DNA of 64,000 bases, taken from Myroides pelagicus. Its GTDB lineage: Bacteria; Bacteroidota; Bacteroidia; Flavobacteriales; Flavobacteriaceae. A program made the position numbers and the translations under genes. Below the pieces are notes generated by a model. That model had not been told where the DNA came from, ran no database searches, and was given only the letters and a program-made list of their open reading frames with translations. The stretch lies in contig NZ_WMJY01000001.1 of assembly GCF_009711055.1 (NCBI RefSeq), forward strand, positions 1-64,000. Direction: 5' to 3'. Below, piece after piece: positions 2,061-10,980 of the stretch. Within the stretch, counting starts at the first letter, position 1. Each line of letters opens with the position of its first letter.

Positions 2061-2621
2061 ATGTTATTAGAAGGTCAGGAGGAATCCTTAGTTTCTCGCT
2101 TACAAAAAAGAGAGCCAAAAGCTTGGAAGGAGTTTTATGACTTCTATTCGAGTAGCTTGACCTATGTCTGTATGCGATATATTATTAAGCAAGAAGATGT
2201 ACAAGATATATTGCAAGACAGTCTAGTAAAAATGTATCATGCGATAGAGAAATTTGAATACAAGGGAAAGGGAGCCTTACAAGCGTGGGCAACACGAATA
2301 GTGGTTAATGAGTCATTGAAGTTTCTAAGAAAAGAAAAATATAACTTCACTGTCGATGAAGAGCTGATAGAAGATGTAGTAGAGGAAGAAACATCAGACT
2401 TTGAAGGGGTGTCTCAAGAAGATATTTTTGAGATGATACGCAGTCTGCCCGATGGGTATAGAGCAGTATTTAACCTTTATGTCTTTGAACAAAAAAGCCA
2501 TAAAGAGATTGGACAATTACTTGGAATTGCGGAGAATTCATCAGCTTCACAGTTTCACAGGGCGAAAGGAATATTATCCCAAAGAATAAAAGAGTTTAAA
2601 AAACTAAAAGTAGCGTTATGA
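2061..2621 (+). CDS. RNA polymerase sigma factor, ECF-type sigma-70 family
   Basis: A 186-residue two-domain sigma factor. Region 2 covers about residues 15-90 (FYDFYSSSLTYVCMRYI, then EDVQDILQDSLVKMYHAIEKFEYKG and WATRIVVNES). Region 4 covers about 125-180, with the helix-turn-helix stretch KSHKEIGQLLGIAENSSASQ. Regions 1.1 and 3 are absent, as expected for the ECF class. It directs core RNA polymerase to a special promoter set. Its stop overlaps the start of the next gene (ATGA), so the two are translationally coupled, and the partner probably controls its activity. The target promoters cannot be read from the window. Confidence 0.9.
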   Translation: MLLEGQEESLVSRLQKREPKAWKEFYDFYSSSLTYVCMRYIIKQEDVQDILQDSLVKMYHAIEKFEYKGKGALQAWATRIVVNESLKFLRKEKYNFTVDEELIEDVVEEETSDFEGVSQEDIFEMIRSLPDGYRAVFNLYVFEQKSHKEIGQLLGIAENSSASQFHRAKGILSQRIKEFKKLKVAL

Positions 2622-3925
2622 GTAAAGAATGGAATGAAGAGCTGCGGAAAAAAATGAAAGGTTTTAGTCATCAGGCACCTGTTGACGTTTGGGATAATGT
2701 AGAGAAGATAATATTTGAGGATAAAAAGAAGGCAGTAATCCTACCTTTGATTCCACAAAAACCTTGGTTCAAACAACCTGTTGTCCTTTATAGAGGAGGT
2801 CTATTGATTGGCGCAGCAACAGTTGCTCTGATGTTGTTTGTCAAACCCTCGGTTAATGAGCATATTACAAAACCGATAAAGGAAAAGGTTAGCTCAAAAG
2901 TTAATGCAGTCGCTACAGCGATAGAACGTCAAGATGCTGAGGTTGTCGAACAACGTACAATAGCACCAAAGCAAGCATTGATCGCTAAAGTAGAAAGAGA
3001 AAAGCAGTCCACACTGTTTAATCATAACTACTTAAATGAACATACGGAAAGACATCAAATAGCTGGTGAGAGAGCAGTCGCTTTTACTGAAGTAGCAGTT
3101 ACTTTTGCTGGAGATACAAATACGGAGCCTATTAGTCTAGAAGAGTTAATAGAGAAAGAAAAGGCTTTTTGGGAACAAGAAGAGTTAATCGCTACGTCTA
3201 ATAACAAACTAAAGAGTAAAAGAAAAGGTTGGGATGCTGCGGTACATACGAATGGTATTTTTGCAAAATCACAACAGACTATTCCGGGTTATGCAACGAT
3301 GAACGGAACGACTCTGGGTATAGATTCAGAAATAGTACAAAGTATCAATGGAGGTACTAATGCTTTTTCTGATATATTCAAAGCAAATCGAATAGAAGAT
3401 GTAGTAACGAATGTTACGCATAAAGCACCGATCACAGCAGGAGTGTCTATTGGGTATGGATTAAGTGATCGATGGAGTGTATCAACGGGATTAACTTATA
3501 CGATCATGTCATCTGAGCTAGAATCAGGACAAAAGTATAATCGAATGGTTAGTAAACAGACGTTACACTTCTTAGGAGTTCCTTTACAAGTGAATTATCG
3601 TATGTTTAATTTATCAAAAGTTAATACATATGTAACAGCTGGCACGCTATTTGAAAAGACTATATCTGGCAACACGAAGACAGATTATATTGTAAATGAT
3701 CAGCTTAGTAAGCAAGTGGATAGTCGTACAAATATTAAGGAAGTACAGTTGTCGCTTAATGCAGGAGTAGGAATGGAATATCGCGTGTCTGATTTGATAG
3801 GGATCTATGTAGAACCAGGGGTTCAATATCATGTCAAAGACAACAGTGAAATTGGGGTTTTTTATAAAGAGAAGCCTTTTAATTTTAACCTTAAAGCAGG
3901 TTTACGCTTTAATTTATCAAAATAG
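2618..3925 (+). CDS. Inner-membrane-anchored protein with C-terminal outer-membrane beta-barrel, probable anti-sigma partner
   Basis: A 435-residue protein overlapping the sigma gene by four bases. The first 60 or so residues are polar and begin MSKEWNEELRKKMKGF, followed by a single membrane segment (about 66-83, LLIGAATVALMLFV). Then comes a long charged, probably periplasmic linker. The last 180 residues look like an eight-strand barrel of the PorT/OmpA type: ITAGVSIGYGLSDRWSVSTGLTY, then VNYRMFNL, and finally FNLKAGLRFNL, ending close to the C-terminus as barrels do. Sigma genes followed by such proteins are common in Bacteroidetes. That the N-terminus binds the sigma factor is inference from coupling and topology, since no ZAS zinc motif is present. 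Confidence 0.72.
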   Translation: MSKEWNEELRKKMKGFSHQAPVDVWDNVEKIIFEDKKKAVILPLIPQKPWFKQPVVLYRGGLLIGAATVALMLFVKPSVNEHITKPIKEKVSSKVNAVATAIERQDAEVVEQRTIAPKQALIAKVEREKQSTLFNHNYLNEHTERHQIAGERAVAFTEVAVTFAGDTNTEPISLEELIEKEKAFWEQEELIATSNNKLKSKRKGWDAAVHTNGIFAKSQQTIPGYATMNGTTLGIDSEIVQSINGGTNAFSDIFKANRIEDVVTNVTHKAPITAGVSIGYGLSDRWSVSTGLTYTIMSSELESGQKYNRMVSKQTLHFLGVPLQVNYRMFNLSKVNTYVTAGTLFEKTISGNTKTDYIVNDQLSKQVDSRTNIKEVQLSLNAGVGMEYRVSDLIGIYVEPGVQYHVKDNSEIGVFYKEKPFNFNLKAGLRFNLSK

Positions 3926-3958: not shown

Positions 3959-3983
3959 AGCCAGACGATTTTATTGTCTGGCT
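3959..3983 (+). terminator. Hairpin after the sigma/barrel operon
   Basis: An 8-base perfect stem, AGCCAGAC at 3959-3966 and GTCTGGCT at 3976-3983, with a 9-base loop. The T-run is weak, so termination may be partial. The 3' arm is the start of the 47-base repeat that follows. Confidence 0.55.
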
Positions 3984-4079
3984 TCTATGCTTTAGACTAC
4001 TTGGATAGTTGCGAAGTTTATTGTCTGGCTTCTATGCTTTAGACTACTTGGATAGTTGCGAAGTTTATTGTCTGGCTTC
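3971..4079. repeat. 47-base tandem direct repeat, 2.3 copies
   Basis: Units begin at 3971, 4018 and 4065 with TTATTGTCTGGCTTC. The first two are 47 bases long and look identical; the third is cut after about 15 bases. The array fills the gap between the convergent sigma-operon barrel gene and the MFS gene, ending four bases from the MFS stop codon. Each unit repeats the GTCTGGCT arm of the hairpin at 3959. Confidence 0.9.
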
Positions 4080-8852: not shown

Positions 8853-10980
8853 ATGAAGTATTATCTAGTACACTTAGCTTTAAGTTGTATTCCTTTATAT
8901 TTGGCACAGGCTCAAGATTCTTTAGCCATACATTCGATAGAGGAAGTGATTATTCAAGCCAAACTTCCAGAGAGGAGTTTTTCTTCTAAAATGCCTTTAA
9001 CAAGTTTGGAGACTCCTCAGTCGTATGATCTGATTCAGTCTAGTACTTTAGAAAAACAAGTTACGACTAACTTAAAAGATGCCTTAAAAAATGCTACGGG
9101 TATTGCCAGAGCATGGGAATCTACAGGAGTTGGAGTTATGGGGGGGAGAATATTATACTCTAAGAGGCTTTGCCCTTCAACCTAATTTACTCAATGGGTT
9201 ACCTAGTTTGAATAATGGCGCACTAGAAATGGCCAATGTTGAACAAGTGGAAGTGATTAAAGGGCCAAATGGAACGTTGTATGGAGGGAGTGTAGTGGGG
9301 TATGGAGGACTGATCAATGTGATTACCAAAAAACCACATGATACGTTTGCTTCTTCTATGACCTATACTGTGGGTAGTAATCAATACAATCGTTTCGCCC
9401 TTGATTTAAATACGCCTGTTAGTGAGTCTTTCCTGACTCGATTAAATGTATCCTACCAAAAGGAGAATAGTTTTAAAGATGCAGGTTTTAAAGAGTCTTT
9501 TTTTGTGGCTCCATCAATGGAATACAAGATCAACAAGCGCGCGACGCTATCTTTTGATTTTCAATATGCGCTGTCACAGGCAGTTCATGTGCCAATGATG
9601 TTTGTATCTACAGCAGTTCCAGTTGGTTTTAATACGCTTGATTTGTTTGAGTCAAATTATAAGAATTCATATACTACAAATGATATTGCCATCAAGAATC
9701 CAACACTAACTGGTCAGTTGAAGTTTGCTTATGACCTCGCTGAGGGCTGGGTTAATACAACTGTAGTTAGTAAAAATCAAACGCTAGCAAATGGTTATTA
9801 TCAAGTCTTAGATGATAGGGGAGATAGCGATCATTTTCAGCGATTTATTACTCGTATAGATTCTAAGTCAAAGGTATTGTCTGTGCAGAATAATCTTACG
9901 GGAAACTATCAAATTGGCTCATGGAAGAATAAGCTTTTAATAGGTGTTGATTATTTGTCTAAAGAATTTATTAGTCGAAATACGGATTATGTGGCAATGG
10001 GAGTAGTTTCTTTGGTAGAGCAGACAGATAGTGGTAATCTGAGTTTATCGGCGATTGATCGTCAATTGGAGCAGGCATTATATGTCGATAATCAGGCAAA
10101 AATGCAGACCTAAAGTGCGTATCTGTCTAATGTGACTGACTTGTCAGAAAGGCTTTCAATGATGATGAGTATTCGTCTGGATCATCTCGTCGGAAGTACA
10201 TCGACCTTTGAAGCAGAGAAAGTTTATCAAACAACTTATTCCCCTAAGTTTGGATTAGTATATCAATTAATGCCTGATCGCTGGGTCGTTTTTGCCAATT
10301 ATCTTAACGGATTTGTATTCTTGGATCCGGCTATTACTTCAGATCCTGACGGTACAAATAGGCGCATTAAACCTTTTGATCCAGAACAAGCAAATCAATT
10401 TGAAATAGGAACTAAAGCAAAGCTCTTTGCTAACCGACTAGAGGCTACCCTGAGCCTATATACAATAGATGTGTATAATAAGTTGATGACCGATATTACC
10501 AATACTCAAAATTTCAAACAAGGAGGAAAAGTAAACAGCAAAGGAATAGAGCTTACCCTACACGGTACGCCACTACCGGGGCTGACCATAATAGGCGGTT
10601 ATAGTCACAACTATAATCAAGTAACTAAGTCTGAACCTTCTGATGCCAATTTAGGACTAAGGCCTGAGGAAGCAGGGCCAGCTAATCTTTTTAATGCATG
10701 GATAGATTATGAGATACAGGCTGGTACTTTCAAGAATCTAAATATTGGAATGGGGGTTTTTGGTGCGAGTAGCCAACGATCATTAAATCGCTTGACTTTA
10801 GGCGCGATGAAATTGCCTAGTTATACTTTTTTAAATGGGGTAATAGGCTATCAACTGGATCAATACAACGTTCGCTTTAAGATTGACAATATGTTGAATA
10901 GAAAGTATTTTACAGGAAATGCTACTGTCAATCCACAGGCTTTGCGAACCTTTCTTGTATCGTTTAATTATTCCTTTTAG
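8853..10980 (+). pseudogene. TonB-dependent siderophore receptor, broken by a frameshift and a stop
   Basis: Read through, this would be a receptor of about 708 residues. It has a signal peptide ending LAQAQDS, a plug domain with EEVIIQAK, RGFALQPN, VEVIKGPNGTLYGG and GLINVITKKP, then a 22-strand-type barrel ending in FLVSFNYSF with the terminal aromatic residue. Two lesions are visible. At the G7 run 9140-9146 the frame shifts: six Gs would give GVMGGEYYTLRGF, the expected plug motif, while seven lead to a stop at 9185. A single in-frame TAA at 10111-10113 (KMQT-stop-SAYLS) then interrupts the barrel. Known role of intact relatives: outer-membrane uptake of ferric siderophores. As written it cannot make a full receptor; sequencing error, decay or on/off switching at the G run are the options. 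Confidence 0.85.

Follow-up and report, generated by a model that had tools for sequence, protein, structure and literature searches.

A Dma/Reo-type sigma/anti-sigma pair with a DUF4840-like lipoprotein partner in Myroides pelagicus, a predicted switch between the outer membrane and transcription

The first 64,000 nucleotides of contig NZ_WMJY01000001.1 of Myroides pelagicus (the window) carry an ECF sigma factor gene and, overlapping with it, the gene of a 435-residue protein. The two belong to a known kind of system, Dma/Reo, of which they are a new member with another lipoprotein partner. That the pair functions as a membrane-spanning sigma/anti-sigma switch of this kind is likely, with a probability of roughly three in four. 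We computed the domain layout, the barrel fold, the gene coupling, the coevolving positions and the promoter conservation, and we infer the orientation of the Myroides copy, the inhibition, the signal, the release step, the promoter use and the output. In the proposed resting state, an N-terminal two-helix domain would keep the sigma factor bound on the cytoplasmic side of the inner membrane, covering its region 2.2 (where the β′ clamp of RNA polymerase binds) and in contact with the end of region 4. Next, the chain would cross the inner membrane once, continue as a loose periplasmic tether and end in an OmpA-like barrel placed in the outer membrane by BAM. Outer-membrane damage or an outer-membrane ligand would alter the barrel or the tether and free the sigma factor, which would transcribe at least its own operon, including the lipoprotein-type protein, from a TGCAAG...TTTA promoter.

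All genes of the operon lie on the forward strand. The sigma gene (2061-2621, 186 aa) and the anti-sigma gene (2618-3925, 435 aa) were confirmed as two open reading frames with a 4-bp overlap, ATGA. The sigma product matches Pfam Sigma70_r2 (6.6e-13) and Sigma70_r4_2 (1.1e-12), and together with the sigma tree described below this assigns it to the Das/EcfO type of ECF sigma factors; its match to TIGR02985 (Sig70_bacteroi1, 8.5e-24) lies under that model's own cut-off. The 435-residue protein matches two outer-membrane barrel families, OMP_b-brl_2 (residues 243-389, 1.1e-10) and OMP_b-brl (residues 269-431, 3.1e-10). The operon is opened by a lipoprotein-type, DUF4840-like gene (1452-2012, 186 aa), the product of which matches DUF4840 at a sub-threshold 0.0055. 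A protein search of the genome returned a single copy of the anti-sigma gene plus a weak 75-aa match elsewhere (E 0.09), and the module of anti-sigma domain and membrane helix had this gene as its sole match (E 0.01).

Two further observations concern the surroundings of the operon. Between its end and a convergent MFS gene, a 47-bp unit is repeated in 2.3 copies with no mismatch (3970-4079), and a hairpin recognized by eye at 3960-3982 (GCCAGAC...GTCTGGC), which the pattern scan did not list, contains the start of the first copy and may be a terminator. Further downstream, the gene of a TonB-dependent siderophore receptor (8853-10980) is split over different reading frames into three pieces, with plug parts at 8853-9185 and 9091-10113 and the barrel at 10132-10980, which is either a broken gene or a sequence error.

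An AlphaFold2 model of the 435-residue protein was built on a 22-row alignment (the structure alignment, A5, took in 21 of the 23 loci of the relatives search) and has a mean pLDDT of 66.9. Its N-terminal helices, residues 3-13 and 24-34 in blocks with pLDDT of 54-77, make up the predicted anti-sigma domain (residues 1-34, 2618-2719), which contains Trp25. A Trp is found within residues 16-45 in 323 of the 334 relatives, and a search of solved structures gave none convincingly similar to this domain. The hydropathy profile has a single segment, residues 55-73 (2780-2836), near which the model places a helix (62-74). Residues 74-204 (2837-3229) form a mostly disordered periplasmic tether with a helix at 174-194. 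As the pLDDT is below 50 across residues 35-68 and 70-169, confidence in the model is low for the membrane helix and the tether. Eight long strands follow within residues 205-432 (3230-3913), mostly confident, with blocks up to 96. Foldseek matched this barrel to OmpA, OprF, NspA, Ail and OmpW, and the best 50 of 977 rows (E <= 10) were by title all outer-membrane or designed transmembrane barrels. The hydrophobic alternation across the eight strands was equalled in 0 of 2000 shuffles. A soluble C-terminal fold is unlikely in view of these three results, and the structure prediction that the preliminary description had proposed as a check on the C-terminal part thus gave an OmpA-like barrel rather than a soluble periplasmic fold. 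The order given there, a cytoplasmic start, a membrane helix, a long linker and an outer-membrane barrel, agrees with the prediction, in which the helix has low confidence.

The orientation of the chain was examined by counting K and R residues in the 15 positions on either side of the helix. In the family (334 rows) the averages are 5.35 before the helix and 0.96 after it, with 322 relatives having more before, 10 equal numbers and 2 fewer. The Myroides copy is one of these two: it has 2 before and 3 after, which violates the positive-inside rule, and it also has R59 inside the helix. An N-terminus inside the cell is consequently suggested by the family and, for the Myroides copy with its 2 versus 3 charges, only weakly so. 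A signal peptide followed by an ordinary outer-membrane protein was rejected, as about 54 residues with a conserved fold stand before the helix.

All 334 relatives have no fewer than 124 residues between the end of the helix and strand 2 (median 223.5; 189 in the Myroides copy), a length that by our estimate suffices to cross the periplasm. The same stretch bears on the reading in which the anti-sigma factor is cleaved shortly after it has been assembled and its inner-membrane part and its outer-membrane barrel thereby become two proteins, held together by affinity or not. We regard such an early cut as unlikely. It would suit the disordered tether and the fact that the span is a prediction, and it is opposed by the preservation of the entire stretch in one frame in 334 of 334 relatives. 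The latter is a weak argument, since the barrel needs a long linker to reach BAM in any case.

The coupling between the two genes was then evaluated across relatives. Loci were picked via their match to two Dma-type alignments (A1 and A5), by score and by hand, with the sigma gene being no criterion, and counts over them are therefore not unbiased rates. The 401 loci contain 372 distinct barrel-matching frames, 335 of which encode a hydrophobic helix before the barrel and closely follow an ECF sigma gene. The remaining frames comprise 6 sigma fusions, 17 with a helix and no sigma gene by the rule used, 10 that have no helix, 3 truncated by the end of their locus and a last one, obtained by difference, that the domain-score filter removed. 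Several of the 27 frames lacking a sigma gene or a helix resemble plain secreted barrels, and some have no upstream DNA in their locus. In the 335 coupled cases, the gap between the two genes is -60 to 30 bp in 302 and the genes overlap in 202. At E 1e-5, the broad model A1 matched 131 genomes of the family out of 149 and 62 of 296 genomes of the phylum; for the genus, at E 1e-20, the figure was 93 of 121. Some of its weaker matches cover no more than the N-terminal module or the barrel, and the 131 of 149 are a count of matches rather than of confirmed architectures. Relatives of the Myroides sub-type itself were found in 5 of 398 genus genomes at E 1e-12, its own genome counted. Among named relatives, the nearest comes from Myroides albus (46% over the best segment, in a search that may omit own or very near genomes), and further close relatives are from Myroides and Chryseobacterium, and then from Bacteroidales.

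Evidence for a contact between the two proteins comes from mean-field direct-coupling analysis of 324 pairs (effective number 258; the 335 minus 11 dropped for length) over sigma, anti-sigma domain and barrel columns. The set rests on the first helix assignment and may contain at least two rows (L214 and L145) with the wrong segment taken as the helix. At z >6, there were 4 couplings in 6683 sigma/anti-sigma-domain pairs, 0 in 27221 sigma/barrel pairs and 0 in 6847 anti-sigma-domain/barrel pairs, and at z >4.5 the numbers were 10, 6 and 2. At z >3, the sigma/anti-sigma-domain pairs showed no excess over the sigma/barrel pairs (44 of 6683 versus 152 of 27221, p 0.19). Compared with the anti-sigma-domain/barrel pairs, the excess was not significant at z >5 (p 0.22) and borderline at z >6 (p 0.06). 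The strongest couplings connect sigma K169 with N6 of the anti-sigma domain (10.8), Q48 with P21 (9.0) and Q52 with I31 (7.5), followed by P19 with F33 (7.0) and D53 with N6 (5.8); V56 appears at 4.5. We take Q48, Q52, D53 and V56 to lie on one helix of region 2.2, the helix that presumably binds the β′ clamp of RNA polymerase. The anti-sigma domain coevolves with region 2.2 and with the end of region 4 of the sigma factor.

With the barrel columns left out, the real maximum was 10.55, compared with at most 5.04 in 60 partner shuffles, 40 of which were within sigma clusters. In three half-splits, the top pair ranked first or second in each half, and the next four ranked between 1st and 72nd of 6683. 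A smaller run with 212 pairs was weaker: z exceeded 5 in 5 of 6888 sigma/anti-sigma-domain pairs and in 3 of 27224 sigma/barrel pairs, and the largest sigma/barrel value (6.74) was greater than the largest sigma/anti-sigma-domain value (6.48). Taken as a signal in alignments, the coevolution supports a direct contact between the sigma factor and the anti-sigma domain and an occlusion of the former, and is no proof of inhibition. The coupling to the sigma factor that was postulated in the preliminary description appears sound in so far as the gene overlap and the coevolution of sigma and N-terminal domain point the same way.

The module consisting of the anti-sigma domain and the membrane helix also occurs with other C-terminal parts. 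It was surveyed in 12 genomes, picked partly for module-only matches, in which 30 of the 38 matches had loci. In 17 of these 30 the protein has no barrel by the models used (4 of the 17 are cut at the locus end), and a sigma gene is present in 29 of the 30. Four loci (L419, L420, L424 and L426) have the module beside an ECF sigma gene and a long non-barrel part in a frame cut at the locus end; the tail in L424 has CarboxypepD_reg-like and vWF_A domains, and those in L419, L420 and L426 look vWA-like on reading of their sequences. Another module protein, of 323 aa (L423:1444-2412), has an end (ATEKYGERGKKGVVIITTKNG) that by eye resembles part of the plug of a TonB receptor and has no Pfam match. 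The barrel hence seems to be one among several sensor modules.

These data can be set against the reading that the 435-residue protein is no sigma regulator at all, but an outer-membrane protein of the ordinary sort, with an unusual N-terminus, that is by chance a neighbor of a sigma gene. While its barrel does match general outer-membrane protein families, and the Myroides helix is weak and has an arginine inside, the N-terminal domain coevolves with the sigma factor, the module recurs beside ECF sigma genes without the barrel, and the published homologues are anti-sigma factors. A chance neighbor is accordingly very improbable.

FecI-FecR-FecA also conveys an outer-membrane signal to an ECF sigma factor, with three proteins that include a TonB receptor and the inner-membrane FecR. 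The Myroides system is similar in its predicted direction of signaling and differs from it in that one chain would span the distance. FecR-type signaling was rejected, as the three operon proteins have no FecR or TonB-receptor match in Pfam.

As the 435-residue protein has the published Dma/Reo architecture, its kind is already known. According to the accessible text of PMC13088901, Dma1 and Dma2 of Bacteroides thetaiotaomicron, with their sigma factors Das1 and Das2, have the same succession of an N-terminal sigma-binding domain, one membrane helix, a disordered tether and a C-terminal barrel next to an ECF sigma gene, and the Dma class is described as restricted to Bacteroidota. Sigma binding by the Myroides N-terminal domain is predicted from coevolution. 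The same text places a DUF4943 gene (BT_1557) in the Dma2 operon and a DUF4858 gene (BT_1556) in its vicinity, whereas the first gene here is DUF4840-like and no vesicle effect is known for the Myroides pair. The EcfO-Reo pair of Phocaeicola vulgatus and Bacteroides fragilis is similar too, its anti-sigma factor being described as reaching from the cytoplasm to the surface in the available parts of PMC9308784 and PMC13114119. By locus-tag numbers, nigD (03762) adjoins ecfO (03761) and reo (03760) there, and the NigD output is EcfO-dependent (PMC9308784, PMC13114119). The Myroides operon, unlike EcfO-Reo and Das1-Dma1, has no nigD and carries the DUF4840-like gene in that slot. Dma3 shares the barrel, the tether and the membrane helix with the Myroides protein, but its sigma domain is the N-terminus of the same chain rather than the product of a separate gene (PMC13088901, accessible text). 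Related literature, likewise seen in part, includes PMC11878027, PMC12596196, PMC12045153 and PMC8999054.

The mechanism, called poorly known in the preliminary description, is less obscure than that: according to the accessible parts of these sources, deletion phenotypes and regulons are on record for Dma1, Dma2 and EcfO-Reo, the last of which also has a published inducer (PMC13088901, PMC9308784, PMC13114119). Loss of Dma2 or Reo switches on the targets of the cognate sigma factor (PMC13088901, PMC13114119). The simultaneous spanning of both membranes is called predicted or proposed in the published accounts available to us.

The release step can be approached from relatives with a different arrangement. 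In six of the 372, sigma region 4 runs directly into the membrane helix with no anti-sigma domain. The disappearance of this domain where the sigma factor is covalently tied fits a holding role for it. At the same time, such relatives need cleavage or a sigma factor that is active at the membrane, which leaves unsupported the earlier suggestion that the signal passes without a protease cascade. The same Myroides protein might release its sigma factor by regulated proteolysis as in RseA: the chain would be cleaved first within the tether or close to the membrane and then by an RseP-like cut, and the barrel would do no more than guard the cleavage site. We consider this a serious possibility, if at somewhat less than even odds. 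Regulated proteolysis is the common route for membrane anti-sigma factors, the tether is disordered in the AlphaFold2 model, and in the six fusions cleavage alone would free a sigma factor that is not membrane-active. Against it, none of the three operon genes encodes a protease by Pfam, and the word stem 'proteol' occurs once in the accessible text of the Dma2 paper (PMC13088901), within a reference title. The six fusions and Dma3, as far as the latter is described in that text, are both sigma-bearing; the fusions have no separate anti-sigma domain, and orthology to Dma3 is not implied.

The lipoprotein-type gene distinguishes the Myroides operon from its published counterparts. Cys26 of its product is invariant in 9 rows, and its model is all-beta with a mean pLDDT of 80; a fold search with the DUF4840-like protein returned weak matches at best (E 4e-3) and no convincing solved structure. 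In relatives, the protein in the same slot matches DUF4840 above the cut-off in L127, L129 and L133 and is unmatched in L126. The slot is occupied by DUF4840 in a Prevotellaceae locus (L143); in two Bacteroidales loci, L135 and L139, it is occupied by NigD, and the L135 protein fits the NigD1/NigD2 model with 2.7e-62. The Myroides sigma factor falls inside a clade of 37 tips with support 1.0 in a sigma tree that has 324 tips and holds no named EcfO, Das1 or Dma reference genes. The slot holds DUF4840 in 16 of the 37, NigD in 14 and no such gene in 3, while 3 have too little flank and 1 is unassigned. Over all 334 rows, the counts are 14 for NigD, 17 for DUF4840, 252 for none and 51 for too little flank, so nearly all NigD and DUF4840 cases belong to this clade. 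Its operons are mostly led by a lipoprotein-type gene, NigD in Bacteroidales and DUF4840 in Myroides and Chryseobacterium, and the deeper nodes uniting the two parts have poor support (0.38 and 0.14). A remote homology of NigD and DUF4840 was rejected, as their profiles share an alignable stretch only in the lipoprotein signal region (22 columns, 33% probability), and judged by these profiles the two are apparently unrelated. In the open literature, we found no paper on DUF4840 or on Myroides together with an anti-sigma factor.

Both kinds of lipoprotein-type gene are preceded by a shared sequence. The pattern TGCAAGRTT-N12-15-GNTTTA was derived from 20 regions upstream of NigD or DUF4840 genes, 18 of which have TGCAAG. 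In the 64-kb window it has one match (0.03 expected), a candidate promoter at 1376-1402 on the forward strand that the sigma factor itself would read, consisting of TGCAAGATTT and then GGGGTTTA, with 49 bp from its end to the ATG of the lipoprotein-type gene. In 431 loci (1.89 Mb) there are 24 matches: 23 have a NigD or DUF4840 gene starting 3-58 bp further on, and the 24th (L135:2695) precedes another lipoprotein-type gene between nigD and sigma. These 24 include repeats, as the locus of the Myroides window enters four times and L124 seems to duplicate L130; the pattern-bearing loci outside the discovery set are L123, L163, L193, L412 and L413. The recognition sequence of B. fragilis EcfO has already been published (PMC7366714, seen in part), and we do not claim the motif as new.

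Eight genomes bearing the operon of the clade have 9 matches, 7 of them 45-58 bp upstream of a DUF4840 gene. The other two are G000:C2:13423 and one in G721:C109 (L450), where the next frame of at least 60 aa begins 498 bp further on. The Myroides genome itself has 2 strict matches, that of the operon and C2:13423, and the strict pattern is absent from G020, the bearer genome that has the closest relative in the genus search. In one of the bearers (G552, L446), tandem DUF4840 genes are found with the strict pattern 53 bp before the first and a TGCAAG near-match before the second; the matched gene is an extra copy upstream of the operon's own DUF4840 gene. A scan of 33 genomes found the pattern in controls too, often within an unrelated repeat, and counts per genome do not part bearers from controls for this reason. 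One such repeat, ending in AAACCTTGTAGGTTT, seems unrelated to the operon; it contributes all three pattern matches of G033, 7 of the 8 in G042 and 2 of the 3 in G057.

A more specific proposal is that the anti-sigma factor itself senses outer-membrane assembly, its barrel depending on BAM for folding while its opposite end binds the sigma factor: a barrel left unassembled, because BAM fails or the outer membrane is torn, would free the sigma factor, and the NigD or DUF4840 surface lipoprotein would be the interchangeable output of one conserved promoter. We consider this rather doubtful. It draws, indirectly, on the available accounts of P. vulgatus, where the pair responds to toxin treatment, which the authors read as envelope stress, and where the treated cells induce other genes as well, many of which a BamA inhibitor is known to induce. 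If it were true, one chain would report BAM capacity directly.

How Bacteroidota relay signals from their outer membrane to transcription is an open question; for the Dma/Reo class, the open literature available to us deals with a few gut Bacteroidales. The Myroides copy extends this class, and the coevolution indicates where the two proteins are likely to be in contact. The predicted sigma/anti-sigma contacts can be mutated residue by residue and the promoter sequence can be used in a reporter, so the mechanism of the switch is directly testable. That the same promoter type precedes NigD in some of these operons and DUF4840 in others suggests that they have conserved the output of a lipoprotein and not its fold.
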